From Clostridiales bacterium GWF2_38_85 (GTDB lineage: Bacteria; Bacillota; Clostridia; Oscillospirales; CAG-382), in NCBI GenBank assembly GCA_001797275.1, contig MGOY01000010.1, forward strand, positions 1-41,333: DNA of 41,333 nucleotides, read 5' to 3'. The position numbers and the translations under genes were made by a program. Positions within the stretch are counted from its first letter, which is position 1, and each line of letters begins with the position of its first letter. Positions 8,406-41,036 of the stretch are shown here, in pieces. A model generated the notes under the pieces. That model saw only the letters and a list, made by a program, of their open reading frames with translations. It had not been told where the DNA came from and made no database searches.

Positions 8406-10624
<2,219 letters not shown>

Positions 10625-10668: not shown

Positions 10669-11922
10669 TTAGATTCTTGGTATGGATTTCATTTGCTTTT
10701 TTGTTTTTAAATAACATTCAATTGTCTTTTTGGGTAAGGTTTTATTAATAAATTCGCTTTTTTCAGCTTCTCCTATCGCATCAACAAGCGAAGAGGGAAG
10801 TTGCTTTAATGATTTTGTTGTTTTATCGTCTGCAGCGAAAAGATTAATGTTAGTGGGTTCGCAAAGTGTTTCTTTGTTTTTGATACCTTCAACTCCGGCA
10901 TAAATCAACAAAGCAAAAGCAAGATAAGGGTTTAACATAGGATCTGGAGACCGAAGCTCGGTTCTTGAGTATTCGTCGCTCGAAGCCGGTATTCTGACTA
11001 ACTGTGAACGATTCTGGCAGGACCATGTAACATATCGCGGAGCTTCGAATGAGCCAAGCCGTTCGTAAGAGGTGTGCATTGGATTGAAGAACGCTGTCAT
11101 CTCTGCAATACGATTCATTATGCCTGCTGTAAAGTACTGGTTCTCATTACTACCGAATAGGTTTTTACCGTTTTTGGTTAGCGAATAGTTGATATGCAGC
11201 CCATTACCGGCTTTATCAGGAATTGGTTTCGGCATAAAGGAAGCATAGATTCCATTTTGAGCAGCGACAGTGTTAACAACTGTTTTAAATGCTATGAAGT
11301 TATCAGCTGCCATAAGAGCATCGCTGTATTTGAAATCAATTTCATTCTGTCCGGGGCCTTGCTCATGATGGCTTTTTTTCGGAGTTATTCCCATAGCTTC
11401 GAGCATCAGGCAAATTTCTCTTCGTACATTCTCGCCCTTGTCCTTAGGTGCAATATCCATATATGTCGCATTATCAAAGGGTACTTCATTCGGATTGCCA
11501 TCCTCGTCGTTTTTGAAAAGGTAAAACTCACATTCCGGTTCGATATCGCAACCGAAACCGGCTTGTTCAATTACTTTGACAGCATTTTTGAGAATATTTC
11601 GACTGTCACCCTCGAACAATCTTCCATCCGGATATTTGATGGTACAGAACAATCTGACAACACGTCCATGAGATGGACGCCAGGGAAGAAATGCAAGTGT
11701 TTGGGGTTCGGGGAAAAGGAACAGGTCAGACTCGGTTATGTCATTAAATCCGCTGACAGCAGAAGCATCGAAAGAAATGCCGTATTTGAAGGCTCTTTCA
11801 AGCTCAGAGGGCATAATAGAGATATTCTTTTGAATACCGAAAATATCACAAAAAGTCAGCCTGATAAATTTTACATCGTTTTCATCAATAAAACGAATTA
11901 CTTCTGAAGCGGAATTTAACAT
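10669..11922 (-). CDS. glnA: Glutamine synthetase, short GlnA-type
   Basis: Makes glutamine from glutamate, ammonia and ATP. The 417-residue protein has a beta-grasp N-terminus (1-95) and a catalytic barrel. Recognisable motifs are ECEFYLF (metal Glu), GPGQNEIDF, GNGLHINYSL, APRYVTWSCQNRSQLVRIP and ELRSPDPMLNPYLAFA. It is shorter than classical type I enzymes (about 440-470) and has no adenylylation-site segment, so control is probably transcriptional or by feedback. It lies between the GXGXG glutamate synthase subunit (62-base gap) and the ANTAR regulator. A second, unrelated-size glutamine synthetase (GlnN) is encoded at the other end of this locus. Confidence 0.95.
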   Translation of the reverse strand: MLNSASEVIRFIDENDVKFIRLTFCDIFGIQKNISIMPSELERAFKYGISFDASAVSGFNDITESDLFLFPEPQTLAFLPWRPSHGRVVRLFCTIKYPDGRLFEGDSRNILKNAVKVIEQAGFGCDIEPECEFYLFKNDEDGNPNEVPFDNATYMDIAPKDKGENVRREICLMLEAMGITPKKSHHEQGPGQNEIDFKYSDALMAADNFIAFKTVVNTVAAQNGIYASFMPKPIPDKAGNGLHINYSLTKNGKNLFGSNENQYFTAGIMNRIAEMTAFFNPMHTSYERLGSFEAPRYVTWSCQNRSQLVRIPASSDEYSRTELRSPDPMLNPYLAFALLIYAGVEGIKNKETLCEPTNINLFAADDKTTKSLKQLPSSLVDAIGEAEKSEFINKTLPKKTIECYLKTKKQMKSIPRI

Positions 11923-11984: not shown

Positions 11985-12704
11985 TTAATTATGAACATAC
12001 ATCTGTTTGTAAGGATTTTTTGTATCAGGTGTAACTAAATAATATGTGCTGTTCAACATATCTTTGCAGTTATAACCGAATTTCTCACAAAACTCATTTA
12101 ATATCGGTGCGATAGTGTCAAGATCCTCTTTTTCTGCTTCTTTGACTATAACTTGCTTGTGCAGGTTGGGAGCAGTTGTACAACGAAGGAATATCCTGCC
12201 GCCATGCATTCCGGTACCACAGAAGTTTGCGATTGGTGGAGCTCCATTGCTGTCGAGACCGAGTATGATTATTGTACCGCCTGCCTGATACTCACCAAGA
12301 AAGCTGCCTGCTTTGCCTCCGACAACAAGAACAGGTTGTTTTTCTTTGTAAGCCTTCATGTGGATACCTGCGCGGTAACCAATATCACCTTTTACAAAAA
12401 TTTTACCGCCGCGCATTGCATAACCTGTTGCATCACCCGAATTACCGTTGATTGTGATTGTGCCATCGTTCATGGTATCGCCGACTGCATCCTGAGCATT
12501 GCCGTTGACAATAATATCAGCACCGTTCAGGTATGTGCCGAGCGCATTGCCGGGAGTGCCGTTTATAGTAATTTTTTTATCGCTCAGAGCATCACCAATA
12601 TATCTTTGCCCAAAGCATTTGTTTATTGTTATTTCAGATTCATTCGAGCTTCTGATTTCTTCGTTAAGCTCTTTGTAATCCTTAAGATTTGCTTCTATTA
12701 TCAT
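11985..12704 (-). CDS. Glutamate synthase GXGXG-domain subunit
   Basis: Corresponds to the C-terminal beta-helix domain of the large glutamate synthase subunit, here a separate 239-residue protein as in archaeal-type/GlxC-like enzymes. It shows repeated G-x-x-G-x-x-x-G turns ('GDALSDKKITINGTPGNALG', 'NGNAQDAVGDTMNDGTITI', 'GNSGDATGYAMRGGKIFVKG') that build the helix linking the amidotransferase and synthase sites. The ATG at 12704 is preferred because AAAGGA lies nine bases upstream; nearer ATG/TTG codons overlap the ribosome binding site. It is part of the leftward glutamate synthase set. A formylmethanofuran dehydrogenase C-like role is possible by fold but excluded by context. Confidence 0.9.
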   Translation of the reverse strand: MIIEANLKDYKELNEEIRSSNESEITINKCFGQRYIGDALSDKKITINGTPGNALGTYLNGADIIVNGNAQDAVGDTMNDGTITINGNSGDATGYAMRGGKIFVKGDIGYRAGIHMKAYKEKQPVLVVGGKAGSFLGEYQAGGTIIILGLDSNGAPPIANFCGTGMHGGRIFLRCTTAPNLHKQVIVKEAEKEDLDTIAPILNEFCEKFGYNCKDMLNSTYYLVTPDTKNPYKQMYVHN

Positions 12705-12735
12705 ATACATGAATCCTTTCAAAAAATTAAACTTT

Positions 12736-13965
12736 TCAGACTACGCTCCCAAGAAATTTCGCACGGTCTGTTCTTGAAAATGCCATCAGCTGTGGTTTAT
12801 CTTTAATCAGTTCAAAATCGATGCTGTCAAGCGGTGTTTTGTTTCTGATAAGTGCGGTATATATACCTGCTCTGAGAACATCACCGATTATAATATAACC
12901 AACCAGCCTGTTGTCTTTAACGAACAGCTTCTTGAAGGTGTCGTCAGACTTAACTATATGAGTTACTCCGTCATAACTTCCGGCTGTAATCATATGCATG
13001 CCGAGAAGACCTGTTGCATTCATCGGAATTGCTTTGTTGAATATGCAATCACTGCCTGCCATATTCTTTCCCGCACATTCACCCTGTATATAAGCATTAG
13101 GTAATATAGCGAGTATACGGGTTACATCTGCTGAAATATCATAGGATTCGGTGCAGTCACCGGCAGCATATATATCCGGCAGGGAGGTATTGCAATGCTC
13201 ATCAATGACTATACCTCTGTTTACATTTCCGCCAATAGCTTTGACTAACTCTGTATTGGGACGTACACCGACAGCAATAATTAAAACATCAAAATCTATT
13301 GTTTTTCCACTCTTCATTTTTGCTGTTTTACCTTCGAACACCTCGACACTGTCCGCAAGCATGAAAGTAAAGCCTTTTTCTTCGAGATGTTGCTGCATAA
13401 TTGAAGCGCATTCGTTGTCGAGTACATTAGGAAGAATTCGTTCGGCAAGGTCGGCAATAATAATGTTTTTGGTCTTGTAATGTAAGCTTTCAGCACATTT
13501 CAAACCGATAAGACCGGCACCGATAATAAAGATACGGCTGTTTTCTTTTACATCATTATCAAGAGCAAGAGCATCATCAAGCTTCATAAAGGTATGATAA
13601 TGAGGAACGCTGTCAAGTCCGTTAAACGGCGGTACGAATGCCCTTGAACCTGTCGCTACAAGCAACTTATCATATGGAATGATCTCGTCCTTGTCTGTGC
13701 TTACAGTTTTCTTTTCATTATCGATTGAAGTTACTCTTGTACTTAATTTTATATCGCATTTATTATTTTTATAAAAATCATCGGGACGGTATTTCATCCT
13801 GTTGATATCGGTCTTACCTTCAAGCAGATAGGATATCAGCGGTCTTGAATAGGTATGCTGAGCTTCGTCGGATATTATAGTTATTCTGTTGTCTTTATCA
13901 ATGTTTCTTATACCTTCAACACAACCGATGCCGGCAGCAGAGTTGCCTATGATAACGTAATTCAT
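12736..13965 (-). CDS. FAD/NAD(P)-dependent pyridine nucleotide oxidoreductase
   Basis: Two-dinucleotide-binding flavoprotein of 409 residues. An FAD-binding Rossmann motif lies at the N-terminus (VIIGNSAAG), a second NAD(P)-binding motif in the middle (IFIIGAGLIGLKCAESL), and the FAD-contacting 'DIYAAGDCTE' near residue 270. The 'YSRPLISYLLEGK' segment is typical of NirB/rubredoxin-reductase-like class enzymes, without the redox Cys of NADH oxidase. It begins nine bases after the ferredoxin gene, so the two probably form the electron-input arm that delivers NAD(P)H electrons through Fe-S clusters to the FMN synthase subunit. This replaces the usual GltD. The role is inferred from context; the fold is secure. 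Confidence 0.88.
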   Translation of the reverse strand: MNYVIIGNSAAGIGCVEGIRNIDKDNRITIISDEAQHTYSRPLISYLLEGKTDINRMKYRPDDFYKNNKCDIKLSTRVTSIDNEKKTVSTDKDEIIPYDKLLVATGSRAFVPPFNGLDSVPHYHTFMKLDDALALDNDVKENSRIFIIGAGLIGLKCAESLHYKTKNIIIADLAERILPNVLDNECASIMQQHLEEKGFTFMLADSVEVFEGKTAKMKSGKTIDFDVLIIAVGVRPNTELVKAIGGNVNRGIVIDEHCNTSLPDIYAAGDCTESYDISADVTRILAILPNAYIQGECAGKNMAGSDCIFNKAIPMNATGLLGMHMITAGSYDGVTHIVKSDDTFKKLFVKDNRLVGYIIIGDVLRAGIYTALIRNKTPLDSIDFELIKDKPQLMAFSRTDRAKFLGSVV

Positions 13966-13974
13966 ATTATAAAC

Positions 13975-14400
13975 CTACCTTTCTTCAAAAACTATAGCTT
14001 TGTTTATACAGCCTTTAACGCAAGCAGGTTCGCCGCCGTTCTGAGTGCAAAGCTCACATTTTTGCATAACACCATGATCGCTCGGTGAAACTGCACCGTA
14101 TGGGCAGCTAAGAACACAGGTATAACAACCGACGCATTTATTCTTATCAATTGTGATAACACCGTCTTTAATTGTTAAAGCTCCCGAAATGCAGCCTTTG
14201 ACGCAAAGCGGCTCCTCGCAGTGACGACAGGATACTGCAAAGCTGATTGATTGTAACTCCTCAATCTTAATACGAGGACGAATTGTTACATCTTTCAAAG
14301 CATCAACCATATTTTTTATATTTGAATTTGCAAATGCACAATAATACTCGCAAAGATGGCAACCCAGACACCACTTTTCGTTTACATATATTCTTTTCAT
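13975..14400 (-). CDS. Polyferredoxin-type 4Fe-4S electron-transfer protein
   Basis: 141-residue protein with sixteen cysteines arranged for four [4Fe-4S] clusters: Cys11/14/17/21, Cys58/61/66/70, Cys89/92/95/99 and Cys115/118/127/131. The layout resembles HycB/CooF-type electron-transfer subunits. No signal or membrane segment is seen, so it is cytosolic. The ATG at 14400 is chosen (AAAGGA 11 bases upstream); a TTG one codon earlier is also possible. It is tightly coupled to the FAD oxidoreductase and sits between the catalytic glutamate synthase subunits, so it most likely carries electrons within this complex. Confidence 0.9.
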   Translation of the reverse strand: MKRIYVNEKWCLGCHLCEYYCAFANSNIKNMVDALKDVTIRPRIKIEELQSISFAVSCRHCEEPLCVKGCISGALTIKDGVITIDKNKCVGCYTCVLSCPYGAVSPSDHGVMQKCELCTQNGGEPACVKGCINKAIVFEER

Positions 14401-14403
14401 CAA

Positions 14404-14544: not shown

Positions 14545-16050
14545 TTATTCACCAGCATGTTTGATCCCGAGAATCTCAAGTTCTTTCTCGTTTAGACCTA
14601 TGCCGCGGAGCATCAGCCTGTTGCCCTTTAGTGCTTCGATAGAGTTGATACCCATGCAGCCCATAAGCTCTGTTATCTCGTGTCTCCAGGCTGTTATCAG
14701 GTTGACCAGCCTTGTGTATCCGACCTCGGGATTCAATCTCTTTACCAATTCGGCTTTTTGTGTTGCGATACCCCAATTACAAAGTCCTGTGTGGCAGCTT
14801 CTGCAAAGATGGCATCCGAGAGCGATAAGCGCTGCTGTTCCTATATATACTGCGTCGGCACCGAGTGCGATTGCTTTAACGACATCAGTGCTGCTTCTGA
14901 CCGAACCGCCGATAACAAGCGAAACATTTCCGCGTATACCTTCGGCTCTGAGCCTTTCATCAACGCTGGCAAGTGCAAGTTCGATCGGAATACCTACATT
15001 GTCACGGATCCTTGTAGGAGCAGCACCTGTGCCGCCTCTGAACCCGTCAATTGATATAATATCAGCACCGCTTCTTGCTATACCCGAAGCGATTGCAGCA
15101 ACATTGTGTACAGCTGCGATTTTGACTATAACAGGTTTCTTGTATTCAGTTGCTTCTTTCAATGAGTAGACAAGCTGTCTGAGATCTTCGATTGAATATA
15201 TATCATGATGAGGTGCAGGTGAAATAGCATCTGTACCTTCAGGGATCATACGTGTTTTGGAAATGTCACTGCCTATCTTTGTGCCTGGCAGATGGCCACC
15301 GATACCGGGTTTTGCGCCTTGTCCCATCTTGATTTCAACCGCTGCCGCTGCATCAAGATAACCCTTGTGAACACCAAATCGGCCGGATGCAACCTGAACG
15401 ATTGTATTTGCACCATATTGATAGAAATCCTCATGAAGACCGCCTTCACCTGTGTTGTAGTAAATACCAAGCTCTCTTGCGGCTCTTGCAAGGCTTTCGT
15501 GTGCATTATAACTGATTGAACCATAAGACATAGCAGAGAACATAATAGGTAATGTAAGCTCAAGCTGCGGTGGGAGGTTGTTTATCAACCTGCCATCTTT
15601 GTCTCTCTCAATTTTATTGGGTTTTGCGCCAAGAAAGGTTTTCGTTTCCATAGGTTCACGAAGCGGGTCGATTGACGGGTTTGTAACCTGCGAAGCATTA
15701 ATCAGAATTTTATCCCAGTATACCGGGAAAGGCTTCGGGTTTCCCATTGATGACAGTAATACGCCACCGCTTTCCGCTTGTCTGTATATTTCTGTTATTG
15801 TTTCGGGCATCCAGTTTGAATTTGTTTTAAATGTGTGATCGCTTTTAACAATTTTGAGTGCTTTGGTCGGGCAGACCGAAACACATCTATGGCAGCAGAC
15901 ACATTTACTGTCGTCGGCTGTCATTATATTATGATCAGGGTCAAGTTTATGCACCTCGTTTGAACATTGTCGTTCGCAAACGCGGCATTTAATACATTTA
16001 TTAAAATCCCTGATAACTTCATATTCGGGATGTATAAAATTAATCGGCAT
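14545..16050 (-). CDS. Glutamate synthase FMN/Fe-S catalytic subunit (archaeal type)
   Basis: Converts 2-oxoglutarate plus amidotransferase-derived ammonia to glutamate. The 501-residue protein has an N-terminal two-cluster ferredoxin (Cys19/22/25/29 and Cys50/53/56/60), then the FMN-binding TIM-barrel synthase domain ending about residue 480. Typical motifs are 'MSYGSISYNAHESLARAA', 'GEGGLHEDFY', 'KIGQGAKPG'-like 'EIKMGQGAKPGIGG', 'SIDGFRGGTGAAPT' and the Cys cluster 'GCHLCRSCHTGLCNWGIATQ'. The ATG at 16050 is supported by AAGGA; a start 16 codons earlier has none. It is GlxD/GltB2-like. Ferredoxin clusters fused here plus the separate polyferredoxin suggest Fe-S-mediated electron input. Confidence 0.94.
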   Translation of the reverse strand: MPINFIHPEYEVIRDFNKCIKCRVCERQCSNEVHKLDPDHNIMTADDSKCVCCHRCVSVCPTKALKIVKSDHTFKTNSNWMPETITEIYRQAESGGVLLSSMGNPKPFPVYWDKILINASQVTNPSIDPLREPMETKTFLGAKPNKIERDKDGRLINNLPPQLELTLPIMFSAMSYGSISYNAHESLARAARELGIYYNTGEGGLHEDFYQYGANTIVQVASGRFGVHKGYLDAAAAVEIKMGQGAKPGIGGHLPGTKIGSDISKTRMIPEGTDAISPAPHHDIYSIEDLRQLVYSLKEATEYKKPVIVKIAAVHNVAAIASGIARSGADIISIDGFRGGTGAAPTRIRDNVGIPIELALASVDERLRAEGIRGNVSLVIGGSVRSSTDVVKAIALGADAVYIGTAALIALGCHLCRSCHTGLCNWGIATQKAELVKRLNPEVGYTRLVNLITAWRHEITELMGCMGINSIEALKGNRLMLRGIGLNEKELEILGIKHAGE

Positions 16051-16116
16051 AATATTTTCCTTATCTCCAACATTTTTATTTAAATCGCTATGAACCATTC
16101 TTCGTTGGCAGAATGT

Positions 16117-17217
16117 TTATATTTTGACATCATCGTTCAGCTTTACAATTACAGGCTGACCGCCCTTAGGTGCATATATCCTGTCAAGGTCGGGCTCGAT
16201 AACTCGAATTGCAGCTTCTTCACTTGCCATGTATACGCGGTCACCTCTTTCACCGACAACCATCGAACGCAGTTTCAGTCTGTCATTAAGTGCCATGATA
16301 CCGCCTGTATAACCTAACAGAATTGAGAAAGGTCCGGTTATAAGCAGACTTGAGAAGATGTTCCTCAAGTATTTCAAACGCTCTGCTTCCTGAGGTTCCT
16401 TTTTATTAATGGTTGACCAGAACGGAGCGGCAACAACACTCGCAGCTTCTTCGATTGTAAGCCCCATCCTGCGGACAAGATAATCGAATATATATGTGAT
16501 TGCTTCTGTATCGGTCAGTAATGTACATTTGTAACCGAACATTTCAATGTATCTTCTGTTCGCATCGTATGATGAAATTTCACCGTTGTGAACAATCGAA
16601 TAATCAAGCATTGCAAACGGATGAGCACCACCCCACCAGCCGGGTGTGTTTGTGGGATAACGACCGTGCGCTGTCCAGCTGTAGCCTTCGTATTCGGCAA
16701 GTCTGTAGAACTCACCGACATCCTCAGGAAAACCGACAGCTTTGAAGACACCCATGTTTTTTCCGCTTGAGAATACATATGCACCTTTTATCTCACTGTT
16801 TATCTTGATTACACGTCTTACAACATATTCGTCTTCATCGAGGTGACTGTCTGCAAGCCTGACAGGGAGGGGATATACGAAATATCTCCAGATAAGCGGC
16901 TCATTGGTGATTTTTCTGGTTTTCTTTATAGGTATCTTTGACAGATTGACTATTTCAAAACAGCGTTCAAGATACTTTTCACATTCGTCCTTTGCAGCTT
17001 GGGTGTCATAAAAAATATGCAATGCATAAAAATCCTTGTATTCGGGATAGATTCCATATCCGGCAAATCCGCCTCCAAGACCATTTGAACGGTCGTGCAT
17101 GACAGAAATGGATTTTATAATAGATTCACCTGAAATCCTTTCACCTTTTTTCGAGAATATACCCGATATAGCACAGCCTGAAGGGATTCTGTTCTCGTTT
17201 TCGCCTTCTCTGAACAT
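16117..17217 (-). CDS. Glutamate synthase class II amidotransferase subunit
   Basis: Releases ammonia from glutamine for glutamate synthase. The 366-residue protein has the N-terminal-nucleophile glutamine amidotransferase fold. The candidate nucleophile is Cys15 in 'PSGCAISGIF', which would need removal of a short propeptide. Further motifs are 'TAHGRYPTNTPGWWGGAHPF', 'IVHNGEISSYDANRRY' and 'LLTDTEAITYIFDYL'. It is GlxB/GltB1-like. The start is placed at ATG 17217 with GAGG six bases upstream; an earlier TTG lies inside the ribosome binding site. It is the first gene of the leftward transcript, about 210 bases from its promoter, behind a terminator-containing leader. Confidence 0.92.
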   Translation of the reverse strand: MFREGENENRIPSGCAISGIFSKKGERISGESIIKSISVMHDRSNGLGGGFAGYGIYPEYKDFYALHIFYDTQAAKDECEKYLERCFEIVNLSKIPIKKTRKITNEPLIWRYFVYPLPVRLADSHLDEDEYVVRRVIKINSEIKGAYVFSSGKNMGVFKAVGFPEDVGEFYRLAEYEGYSWTAHGRYPTNTPGWWGGAHPFAMLDYSIVHNGEISSYDANRRYIEMFGYKCTLLTDTEAITYIFDYLVRRMGLTIEEAASVVAAPFWSTINKKEPQEAERLKYLRNIFSSLLITGPFSILLGYTGGIMALNDRLKLRSMVVGERGDRVYMASEEAAIRVIEPDLDRIYAPKGGQPVIVKLNDDVKI

Positions 17218-17303
17218 AAAAAACCTCAAATCTCCGGCAGAATATTTTTCGATTATAATATAAACTATTCAAATTCATTCACTGTCGGCTGAATGAATAA
17301 AAT

Positions 17304-17376
17304 AAAAAAGCCTGTATAAGGGCGCAATAATCCCTTAACAGACTCCATTGTCTGCTTTGCGACCTGAGTCGCAAAG
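17304..17376 (-). promoter_or_regulatory. Terminator/antiterminator leader of the glutamate synthase genes
   Basis: Read on the minus strand, hairpin 1 (17376-17355) has a 9-bp stem and TCAG loop. Hairpin 2 (17354-17339) has a 5-bp stem CAGAC/GTCTG and a six-base loop AATGGA. The terminator left arm (17343-17332) pairs with 17322-17310 (12 bp, one bulge), followed by TTTTTT (17309-17304). The GTCTG arm of hairpin 2 is also the first part of the terminator, so the two are mutually exclusive. Loop A1 and G4 fit the ANTAR hexaloop rule; hairpin 1 does not obviously fit. Confidence 0.75.
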
Positions 17377-17431: not shown

Positions 17432-17460
17432 ATTATATACCATATTATTTATCTTGTCAA
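17432..17460 (-). promoter_or_regulatory. Sigma-A promoter of the glutamate synthase/glnA genes
   Basis: On the minus strand, TTGACA (17460-17455), a 17-base spacer and TATAAT (17437-17432) match consensus perfectly. The predicted start is near 17425, about 50 bases before the leader hairpins. Confidence 0.88.
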
Positions 17461-17608: not shown

Positions 17609-17637
17609 TTGACAAATGATTTTTTGTATAATATAAT
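17609..17637 (+). promoter_or_regulatory. Sigma-A promoter of glnN
   Basis: TTGACA (17609-17614), a 17-base spacer and TATAAT (17632-17637) match consensus perfectly. The predicted start is near 17644. Confidence 0.9.
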
Positions 17638-17653
17638 AGCAATATCAGCAAAG

Positions 17654-17691
17654 GCGCTGTGGGCTTACTACCCGCAGCGCTATTTTTATTT
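17654..17691 (+). terminator. Terminator-like hairpin in the glnN leader (attenuator candidate)
   Basis: GCGCTG (17654-17659) pairs with CAGCGC (17675-17680). The stem continues through a U-G pair and GGG/CCC to a seven-base loop and is followed by TATTTTTATTT. It starts about ten bases after the predicted transcript start and lies before the AGGAGG site (17708-17713). This position means most transcripts would end early unless something intervenes. Confidence 0.75.
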
Positions 17692-17722: not shown

Positions 17723-19816
17723 ATGAGTTATTCAAATGATATGTTCGGCAGCATGGTTTTTAATGATCAGGTTATGCATGAGAGATTACCGAAGGATATA
17801 TACAAGTCTTTGAAACAGACTATATTGAAAGGTAAAGACATTGATATTGCAGTTGCAAATGTTGTCGCGAATGCAATGAAGGATTGGGCAATTGAGAGAG
17901 GTGCGACACATTATACTCACTGGTTCCAACCTATGACAGGTATAACCGCTGAGAAACATGACAGCTTTATTTCACCTCAGCCTGACGGTTCGGTTATTAT
18001 GGAGTTTTCCGGCAAAGAGCTTATTAAAGGTGAACCGGATGCATCCAGCTTTCCGTCCGGCGGACTCAGAGCAACCTTTGAAGCAAGAGGCTATACTGCA
18101 TGGGATCCCACATCTTATGCATTTCTTAAAGACGGAACACTTTATATTCCGACAGCTTTCTGCAGCTACGGCGGCGAGGTTCTTGACAAAAAAACCCCAT
18201 TACTGAGATCAATGGAAGCACTCAGTAATCAAGCACTCAGAGTTCTTAAGCTGTTCGGAGCAACGAATGTCGATAATGTCAACTCAACAGTAGGCGCTGA
18301 ACAGGAATATTTCCTTATAGATAAAAAGTCTTATGATGAAAGAAAAGATATTATATTCACCGGCAGAACTTTATTCGGTGCAAAATCACCAAAAGGCCAG
18401 GAGCTTGAAGATCACTACTTTGGTACAATAAAACCGAGAGTTGCCGCTTTTATGAAGGAGCTTGATGAAGAACTTTGGAAGCTCGGCATTCCCGCAAAGA
18501 CAAAACATAACGAAGTTGCTCCTGCACAGCACGAGCTGGCACCTATTTTCGAAACAACTAACCTCGCAACCGATCATAACCAGCTAACAATGGAGTTCAT
18601 GAAAAAGGTTGCACTCAGACATGGTATGGTCTGCCTGCTTCATGAAAAACCCTTTGCAGGTGTCAACGGAAGCGGCAAACATAATAATTGGTCTCTTGCG
18701 ACAAATAAAGGTGTTAACCTTCTCGAGCCGGGAACATCACCTCATGAAAATGCACAGTTCATACTGTTCCTTTGTGCTGTAATAAAAGCTGTTGATGAAT
18801 ATCAGGATCTTCTAAGAATCTCAGTTGCCAGTGCAGGAAACGATCACCGTCTCGGCGCAAACGAAGCACCTCCTGCAATTGTATCAATGTTCCTCGGTAC
18901 AGAGCTGACAGAAATCCTTGATGCAATAGAAAAAGGAATTTCATACGGTAATAAATCGTCCGAGTTCATGAAAATCGGTGTTCATGTTTTACCGCATATT
19001 CCTAAGGATACAACTGACAGAAACAGAACCTCACCATTTGCATTTACCGGCAACAAATTTGAGTTCCGTATGGTTGGTTCTACATTCTCAATTGCAGGGC
19101 CTAACATTATACTTAATACTATCGTCGCCGAATCATTGTCATACTTCGCAGATAAACTTGAAAATGCAGATAATTTCACTGAATTGTTGAATTCTCTGAT
19201 CAAGGAAACAATAAAGAAACATAAACGCATCATATTCAACGGGAACAACTATTCCGATGAATGGGTTAAAGAGGCTGAAAAACGCGGTCTTTCAAACCTT
19301 AGAACAACTGCTCAGGCACTTCCGTTATTTACTTCACAGAAGTATGTTGATTTATTTGAGAAGCACAATGTATTTACAAAGGCTGAGGTTGAGTCCAGAT
19401 GTGAAATCCTCTGCGAGTCATATTGCAAGACGATTCATATAGAAGCTTTAACAATGCTTGATATGACAAAGAAGGATATTTTCCCGGCAGTCTGTGAATA
19501 TATTAAGTCGCTTACTGAAACTGCACTTGCAAAGAAGTCGCTTTGTGATGACGGGATAACAACAGAAGCTGAGATAGCTTTGATTAAAAAGCTTTCGAAT
19601 CTCAGCAAATGCCTGGTTGACAAGACAGATTTACTTGATAAAGCAGTTCTCGGCACTTATGAGATTGATGATATAATTGAAAAGATGAATTATTATCATG
19701 ACACTGTTTTCACAAGTATGCAGGAATTGAGAGCAATAGCAGATGAACTTGAAATCAATGCATCATCTAAATACTGGCCGTTCCCGACATACGGTGATCT
19801 GTTGTTTAATGTTTAA
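17723..19816 (+). CDS. glnN: Glutamine synthetase type III
   Basis: ATP-dependent glutamine synthesis by the large GSIII class found in Bacteroides, Ruminococcus and relatives. The 697-residue length matches the family. Family features seen are '[10 protein letters not shown]', 'KHDSFISP', '[24 protein letters not shown]', '[10 protein letters not shown]', '[15 protein letters not shown]', '[11 protein letters not shown]' and '[11 protein letters not shown]'. AGGAGG nine bases upstream fixes the ATG. The gene is monocistronic, divergent from the glutamate synthase set, and has a strong promoter and an attenuator-like hairpin. Having both a short GlnA and GlnN in one locus suggests different ammonium or glutamine set points. 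Confidence 0.97.
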
Positions 19817-40620: not shown

Positions 40621-40626
40621 ACCGAA

Positions 40627-40988
40627 GAGTTAGCTGAACAATCGCGTGGTATCATATCGAAAGATCATACCATGAGGAAAGTCCGGGCTCCGCAGGGCAG
40701 GATAGCGGATAACCTCCGCCAAGGGCGACCTTAGGGAAAGTGCAACAGAAATAAACCGCCATAAAATATATGCTTGCATATATTTTATCGGTAAGGATGG
40801 AAAGGTGAGGTAAGAGCTTACCGCCGCACTGGCAACTTTGCGGGTCCATGTAAACCCTATCCGGAGCAACACCGCAAAAAGGTGCAATTGTTTGCCCGAC
40901 AGCACCTGAAGGTGGCAGGAGGTGTGCGGCAACGCATACCCAAGATAGATGATTGTTCCCGACAAAACCCGGCTTATAGGCTAAGTTG
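40627..40988 (+). ncRNA. rnpB: RNase P RNA
   Basis: Catalytic RNA of RNase P, which matures tRNA 5' ends. Conserved blocks are recognisable in order: GAGGAAAGTCCGGGCTCC (about 40673-40690), AGGGCAGGATAGCGG, GGGAAAGTGCAACAGAAA, AAGGATGGAAAGGTG, the CR-IV/V region near AGATAGATGATTG, and ACAAAACCCGGCTTATAGG at the end. TTAGC near the 5' end pairs with GCTAA near the 3' end (P1). An AU-only 12-bp stem at about 40761-40788 is a variable helix. The ends are estimated from promoter and terminator. Confidence 0.95.
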
Positions 40989-40989
40989 A

Positions 40990-41036
40990 TTAAGACTGAC
41001 AGATGTCAAACCGACATTTCTCAGCCTTAATTTTTT
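40990..41036 (+). terminator. Terminator of rnpB
   Basis: TTAAGaCTGA (from 40990) pairs with TCAGcCTTAA (41021-41030), with an inner ATGTC/GACAT stem. It is followed by TTTTTT (41031-41036). Confidence 0.88.

Follow-up and report, generated by a model that had tools for sequence, protein, structure and literature searches.

A predicted ANTAR-type attenuator with a single hexaloop hairpin precedes the glutamate synthase operon of Clostridiales bacterium GWF2_38_85

Introduction

The glutamate synthase operon of Clostridiales bacterium GWF2_38_85 is preceded by a leader RNA with two adjacent hairpins, only one of which carries the loop expected of an ANTAR target. Which part of this leader would an ANTAR protein recognize, and could one hairpin be enough? 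We addressed this question for the stretch of 41,333 nucleotides that carries the operon (hereafter the window) and for its relatives.

ANTAR control of nitrogen genes, glutamate synthase leaders included, is already known (PMC3369931; commentary PMC3369936), and Ramesh 2012 connected such leaders with the glutamate synthase genes of Desulfotomaculum reducens (PMC3369931). In addition, NitR antitermination of GS/GOGAT genes was described for C. saccharobutylicum (Stutz 2007, via PMC6316151). In the case of EutV, both hairpins of the target are needed in vivo and deletion of the first one, P1, lowered eutP induction (PMC3369931). According to the structure paper, the protein must contact each hexaloop of a pair in turn to prevent termination (PMC8934654). 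NasR binds a lone second hairpin, P2, weakly (~12 uM; PMC7496416). In the EutV crystal, one hexaloop is contactable by both ANTAR domains, and the authors of this structure redefined the minimal site as a single hexaloop and called for searches. They left the extent of its use open and expected it where the transcribing polymerase sets no time limit (PMC8934654). The actinobacterial survey relied on dual stem-loops (PMC8164766). Since the searches of Ramesh 2012 and those in actinobacteria require two hairpins, single sites would not be expected to score.

Results

The gltA operon and its leader RNA

The leader and the genes behind it comprise the following features:
17432..17460, minus strand: sigma-A promoter driving the gltA operon, TTGACA-17-TATAAT (12/12 consensus positions matched)
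17355..17376, minus strand: P1 hairpin CUUUGCGAC-UCAG-GUCGCAAAG, 9 bp with tetraloop UCAG (fold -12.7 kcal/mol)
17339..17354, minus strand: P2 antiterminator hairpin CAGAC-AAUGGA-GUCUG, predicted ANTAR binding site (sequence; fold -4.9 kcal/mol)
17304..17346, minus strand: intrinsic terminator whose 5' arm takes in the P2 3' arm (hairpin 17346-17307, -16.9 kcal/mol)
16117..17229, minus strand: gltA, glutamine amidotransferase (GATase class II) subunit of a split glutamate synthase (PF00310)
14545..16098, minus strand: glutamate synthase FMN-domain subunit (PF01645, E 9.4e-142)
13975..14403, minus strand: 4Fe-4S ferredoxin-type subunit (PF13247)
12736..13965, minus strand: FAD/NAD(P) oxidoreductase subunit (PF07992)
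11985..12722, minus strand: GXGXG-domain glutamate synthase subunit (PF01493)
10669..11922, minus strand: glnA-type glutamine synthetase, immediately preceding the ANTAR gene (PF00120/PF03951)
10022..10624, minus strand: ANTAR regulator with pseudo-receiver domain, NitR-like (PF03861, PF00072)
8406..10004, minus strand: pyrG, CTP synthase, next gene on the strand, with inferred operon membership (NF003792)

The likely start of gltA is the ATG at 17217, as judged from homologues. The glnA-type protein scores 377.9 bits against TIGR00653 GlnA, which is under the cut-off of 429. Elsewhere in the window, an RNase P RNA of class A is located at 40626-40992 (plus strand).

The first-pass annotation had described a perfect sigma-A promoter, followed by two directly abutting hairpins and a terminator with a U-run, and we recovered this architecture in full (promoter at 17460-17432, hairpins and terminator at 17376-17304). 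The U-run consists of six U (17309-17304), and none of 200 dinucleotide shuffles folds as well as 17420-17290 (z -4.95). A weaker promoter-like site (10/12 matches) is present at 17421-17392. Likewise as annotated, the six-base loop of P2, AAUGGA (17349-17344), has A at position 1 and G at position 4 (A1/G4), a rule that is kept in relatives, and its 3' arm forms part of the 5' arm of the terminator. P1, which was already noted to deviate, does not follow the ANTAR loop rule, as it contains neither a hexaloop nor A1/G4. Both hairpins abut with a linker of 0 nt and have GAC/GUC closing pairs in common. No Rfam family was found at gathering score in the leader.

A loop-agnostic scan of both strands of the window delivered 56 hexaloops (stem of at least 4 bp) that overlap terminator-like hairpins. 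Four of them are of the A1/G4 type and two of these four are linked to a promoter, namely the one in the gltA leader and one in the leader of the divergent glnN.

A second site before glnN

The glnN leader went unnoticed in the first-pass annotation. It comprises:
17609..17637, plus strand: sigma-A promoter of the divergent glnN (12/12 matches)
17646..17659, plus strand: single hexaloop antiterminator CAGC-AAAGGC-GCUG at the predicted glnN transcript start (sequence; 33.1 bits with model R1 described below, being a training-set site)
17653..17681, plus strand: terminator overlapping the hexaloop hairpin, with the 3' arm common to both (-20.6 kcal/mol)
17723..19816, plus strand: glnN, type III glutamine synthetase (PF12437, E 6.4e-82)

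Its hexaloop (17650-17655, plus strand) starts 12 nt after the -10 element. Thus one A1/G4 hexaloop as the whole target, the form proposed by Walshe 2022, is what the glnN leader contains, while P1 intervenes at gltA. The antiterminator hairpins of glnN and gltA reach -3.7 and -4.9 kcal/mol vs. -20.6 and -16.9 kcal/mol for the respective terminators.

Conservation of the hexaloop before gltA and glnN

The gltA gene was found in 15 of 63 genomes of the family, and the upstream DNA was readable in 14. All 14 leaders, including that of the window, contain an A1/G4 hexaloop that overlaps a terminator; the exceptions in detail are L004 with a stem of 3 bp and L013, in which the promoter is cut by the contig end. 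In the 12 other leaders with a readable promoter (L004 included) the hexaloop lies 11-16 nt after the -10. This places the hairpin at about +1, if the start is deduced from the -10, and leaves no space for a first hairpin. This does not support the suggestion of the first-pass annotation that P1 might be a deviating form of the first ANTAR hairpin. In 11 of the 14 leaders the hexaloop is no more than 24 nt away from the -10; a twelfth is L004 with its 3-bp stem.

The window gltA leader itself is the exception within the family, as its P2 loop lies 82 nt from the -10 with the extra P1 in between. A similar distance is found for the second hexaloop of tandem leaders (76 nt by hand count before the strain's own amt, 83 and 86 nt in two glnN leaders). 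P1 looks peculiar to this leader and is perhaps a local addition, either stacking on P2 or as a remnant of the first of two tandem attenuators.

In addition, we inspected the best 80 of at least 587 confirmed relatives among gltA loci of named GTDB genomes, ranging from Clostridium methylpentosum and Acetivibrio mesophilus to Desulfosporosinus and a few non-Clostridia bins. A hexaloop with terminator was detected in 54 of these 80 loci vs. 13 of 800 sequences obtained by first-order resampling, which is not exact shuffling, and none of the 13 resampled positives was promoter-proximal. The 54 positives divide into 41 with a distance of no more than 24 nt between -10 and hexaloop, 7 with a farther promoter but without an A1/G4 first hairpin, and 6 in which no promoter was found. 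Leaders of the dual-hexaloop class numbered 0 of 80 when a first hairpin was sought in those with a farther promoter. An A1/G4 first hairpin (at least 4 pairs) up to 70 nt upstream of the site occurs in one of the 80 loci, L214, where no promoter was found.

When the 80 loci were scanned for loops of any sequence, 45 hexaloop instances were located near a promoter and 43 of them are A1/G4; a few instances are overlapping registers of one hairpin. The corresponding numbers in the family sets are 11/12 for gltA and 12/15 for glnN. Other loop sizes in the 80 loci amounted to 9 (4 nt), 1 (5 nt), 4 (7 nt) and 16 (8 nt), and 11 of the 16 8-nt loops correspond to this hexaloop if its closing pair is opened. 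In an alignment of 23 rows, A1, A2, G4 and the C-G closing pair are invariant and the other pairs vary together; the rows were chosen for A1/G4, so that independent evidence is limited to the stem and A2. Stem cells pair in 98.9%, and changes on both sides occur in 22 cells vs. a shuffled mean of 6.7. Three of five covariation measures exceed every shuffle; pairs with double changes and pair types are not above the shuffles. The check in relatives that was suggested for the loop and the common arm did not refute the first-pass annotation.

The scan found no leader in 26 of the 80 named loci. Among these leaderless loci, an A1/G4 hexaloop was recognized by eye in L162, L163, L182 and L211 (outside the counts), while that of L149 was found in one scan, missed in the counting scan and left out of the 54. 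The gltA upstream regions of L202 and L203 contain G-first hexaloops (GAAGGC and GACGGT) at the usual place, so that a purine may suffice at position 1. In L186, L200, L207, L209 and L220, gltA is preceded by a long leader of another type that lacks the hexaloop, with no Rfam family at gathering score. Finally, the glnN leader L050 (G061) has the loop AATGGG and a competing hairpin without U-run that ends near the ribosome site, and is perhaps a translational form.

The ANTAR protein

As the first-pass annotation had stated, an ANTAR protein is encoded in the same gene set (10022-10624, minus strand). Its ANTAR domain reaches 57.2 bits with PF03861 vs. a Pfam cut-off of 27.3 (E 1.4e-15), and no other ANTAR protein was detected in this genome, for which completeness is rated at 96%. 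Among the 37 named loci that show an ANTAR gene, 36 have glnA immediately before it.

We compared 64 ANTAR rows, in which some genes are represented twice, from two loci each; the EutV contact residues follow the numbering of PMC8934654 and were mapped by hand through the alignment. The phosphoacceptor Asp of a phosphorylated response regulator of the EutV type is absent: the window receiver has Asn63 at this position, and Asn is found in 58/64 rows and Asp in 1. The receiver Lys is kept in 60/64. Among the RNA contacts of EutV, K149 (64/64) and E160 (63/64) are kept, K147 is replaced by Arg in 60/64 and K143 corresponds to Arg or Lys in 61/64. Two positions differ in nature: Arg142 is exchanged for the hydrophobic residues I, M, V or L in 63/64 rows, and Tyr164, which stacks on G4 in EutV, is His in 63/64. 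These changes at two contact positions may bear on single-site function. We dropped His at the Tyr164 position as a diagnostic mark because AmiR has His there as well.

Within the family, an ANTAR domain over the cut-off was detected in 21/63 genomes, including 13 of the 15 with gltA. In G046 and G023, which carry the leaders, none was found over the cut-off, nor with the protein as query. G046 carries an amt leader as well, and G023 shows a weak ANTAR-like match under the cut-off. A glnN leader is present in 10/20 ANTAR-positive vs. 2/32 ANTAR-negative genomes (Fisher P 0.0005, inexact as the genomes are related). Among the 10 ANTAR-positive genomes that lack it, G041 and G043 carry the leader in front of a gene farther upstream, which we take to be asnA.

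By named locus, the association of ANTAR and leader is weak (Fisher P 0.06 for 64 loci, with 16 early-ending loci set aside) because ANTAR is often encoded elsewhere. This was the case in 15/15 genomes with a leader but no ANTAR in the locus; ANTAR was also found in 10/12 genomes whose locus contains no leader and no ANTAR gene.

Regulon search

A promoter plus loop pattern scan of the own genome (96 matches vs. 75 in a reversed control) was too weak alone and was replaced by R1, a model of promoter and hairpin. As the promoter is included, sites with a distant promoter such as the window gltA site are missed. R1 scored 150 first-look candidates per genome in the own genome, relatives and controls, and 24 per genome across the order.

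Of 6 non-training matches in the own genome, the top one scores 26.6 bits (E 0.06) and lies before amt on another contig. This leader (L274, C8:77000-80500) contains two hexaloop attenuators in tandem, the second hexaloop being CACAC-AAAGGC-GUGUG with its own terminator-like hairpin. Tandem units were likewise seen in the amt leaders of G041 and G043 and the glnN leaders of G044 and G007.

Among the relatives, 44 matches were obtained, 22 of them training sites. Fifteen of the other 22 were inspected, and the 7 left over map to the DNA that separates gltA from glnN in G022, G023, G060 and G062. Together with 2 of the 6 own matches, 17 non-training matches were thus inspected. Seven show a hexaloop that overlaps a terminator, and these precede amt (4, in the own and three relatives' genomes), asnB, gdhA and purF. 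One match, before glnA-ANTAR in G042, has the hexaloop with a terminator under the cut-off, and the other 9 show no such terminator-overlapping hexaloop and look like chance. The leader before purF (L271, G044 C2), which encodes a glutamine-using purine enzyme, is of the same kind; the regulon may therefore reach beyond assimilation.

R1 was run on 20 ANTAR-bearing genomes of the family; 5 of them returned no match, and the matches of G027 and G061 lack a terminator. As a control, 22 of the 42 family genomes without ANTAR over the cut-off yielded 6 weak matches, 0/6 with a terminator; these genomes also lack gltA, so that the control covers glnN and other sites only. Over the order, 93/295 genomes match at E <=0.02, a number that includes the family genomes that trained R1. 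The best 26 loci outside the family, one per genome, are located before gltA (21), glnN (4) and gdhA (1), and 25 of them show an overlapping terminator.

Discussion

The window gltA leader shares with the targets of EutV, NasR and AmiR the A1/G4 hexaloop, the hairpin 3' arm that is common with the terminator 5' arm, and the nitrogen genes behind it. In contrast, those targets comprise two hexaloop hairpins, P1 and P2, whereas the form described here has one at the transcript start. If measured against the dual-hexaloop class of Ramesh 2012, the window gltA leader shows the loop rule and the terminator overlap and lacks a pair of such hexaloop hairpins with a linker. What the sequences show directly are the hairpins with their overlap, the geometry of the promoters, the conservation, the genes targeted and the features of the protein. 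The leader is probably an ANTAR-type attenuator with one A1/G4 hexaloop hairpin as its recognition element. We judge it to represent a widespread single-hexaloop variant of the ANTAR target. The autoregulated nitrogen switch of the first-pass annotation stands in kind, since the sequences of 14/14 family leaders and 54/80 named loci give good support to antitermination of the ANTAR type in a nitrogen operon that regulates itself, but its general form with a single hexaloop had been missed.

Other explanations need to be weighed against this. The leader could be a classical dual-hairpin target, with protein on both hairpins and the tetraloop P1 serving as a deviant form of the first site. P1 and P2 indeed abut with common closing pairs and EutV needs two hairpins (PMC3369931); however, P1 has neither hexaloop nor A1/G4, and the linker of 0 nt differs from the 5-12 nt between P1 and P2 in the E. 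faecalis eut leaders (PMC3369931). The 12 other readable family leaders start their hexaloop 11-16 nt past the -10, and L214, where no promoter was found, provides the sole A1/G4 hairpin within 70 nt upstream among the 80 named loci. We therefore regard a dual target as unlikely. A chance occurrence of hairpins at an ordinary terminator or in a constitutive leader deserves even less weight: small single hairpins are common, but conservation leads us to reject this reading almost entirely, as the named loci exceed the resampled sequences by far and the non-training matches that bear a terminator sit at nitrogen or glutamine-using genes.

About as improbable as the dual target is a terminator-antiterminator pair under another factor, be it a small molecule or another protein, for which the hexaloop would be conserved. 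The leaders of G046 and G023 without detected ANTAR gene, the changes at Arg142 and Tyr164 in this ANTAR group and the ANTAR-bearing genomes without R1 site would fit such a factor. Against it stand the A1/G4 loop rule itself, the ANTAR gene inside the operon, the lack of an Rfam family at gathering score, the 22 ANTAR-less genomes without a terminator-bearing R1 match, and the 15/15 genomes in which ANTAR is encoded elsewhere if the leader locus has none. An ANTAR-type attenuator with a single hexaloop is the reading that we follow below.

For this attenuator we infer binding, switch direction, signal and partner as follows. By default, the nascent RNA would fold the stronger terminator and transcription would halt before gltA. 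The NitR-like ANTAR protein, predicted to be active under nitrogen limitation, would bind the emerging hexaloop and hold the weak antiterminator hairpin, so that its 3' arm is kept from the terminator and read-through follows. That termination is the default and that bound protein is needed is suggested by antiterminators far weaker than the terminators and by analogy to EutV and NasR. With the regulator encoded in the same operon directly after glnA, positive autoregulation would result, and we predict that this regulator also acts on the divergent glnN and on amt on the other contig. The pseudo-receiver without phosphoacceptor makes a kinase less likely and points to a protein partner, as has been stated for the AmiR class (PMC7496416). 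Activity is thus probably set by such a partner, and glutamine synthetase is the leading candidate because of its constant adjacency; a precedent is glutamine synthetase-TnrA in Bacillus (PMC6316151).

Systems of this type were known before; what is new is the form with a single hexaloop. NitR of C. saccharobutylicum and C. acetobutylicum is likewise an ANTAR regulator of GS/GOGAT genes that is said to act by antitermination under nitrogen limitation (Stutz 2007, via PMC6316151). The likeness of the window protein to NitR follows from the descriptions in PMC6316151 and PMC4676874 and not from sequence. A published single-hexaloop target for NitR was not seen in the literature searched. AmiR shares the pseudo-receiver class (PMC7496416, PMC3369936) and the His at the Tyr164 position; its partner AmiC binds amides, whereas the constant neighbour of the window protein is glutamine synthetase. 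The cluster Clo1313_2030-2036 of Clostridium thermocellum is also a glutamate synthase cluster with a co-expressed ANTAR gene, for which an antiterminator role was suggested (PMC4676874). It differs in that the parts consulted of PMC4676874 describe no leader RNA element. Single-hexaloop ANTAR leaders were not recognized in any description within the literature searched, with most subscription papers and supplements outside the search. Given the need of EutV for P1 and the weak single-hairpin binding of NasR, a working single site would be a real departure.

One might go further and envision a Clostridia-wide nitrogen regulon based on single 5'-end hexaloops, one of which suffices in the cell, with glutamine synthetase as the sensor that holds or releases the regulator. 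We put this forward as a tentative idea that could well turn out otherwise. Nevertheless, with matches in 93 of the 295 order genomes, a large natural set of single-hexaloop sites that are predicted co-transcriptional attenuators is now at hand, and such short leader RNAs make the need for P1 directly answerable. Furthermore, GlnA and the pseudo-receiver ANTAR protein are a candidate sensor pair, and the switch described here is the probable main nitrogen switch of many Clostridia.
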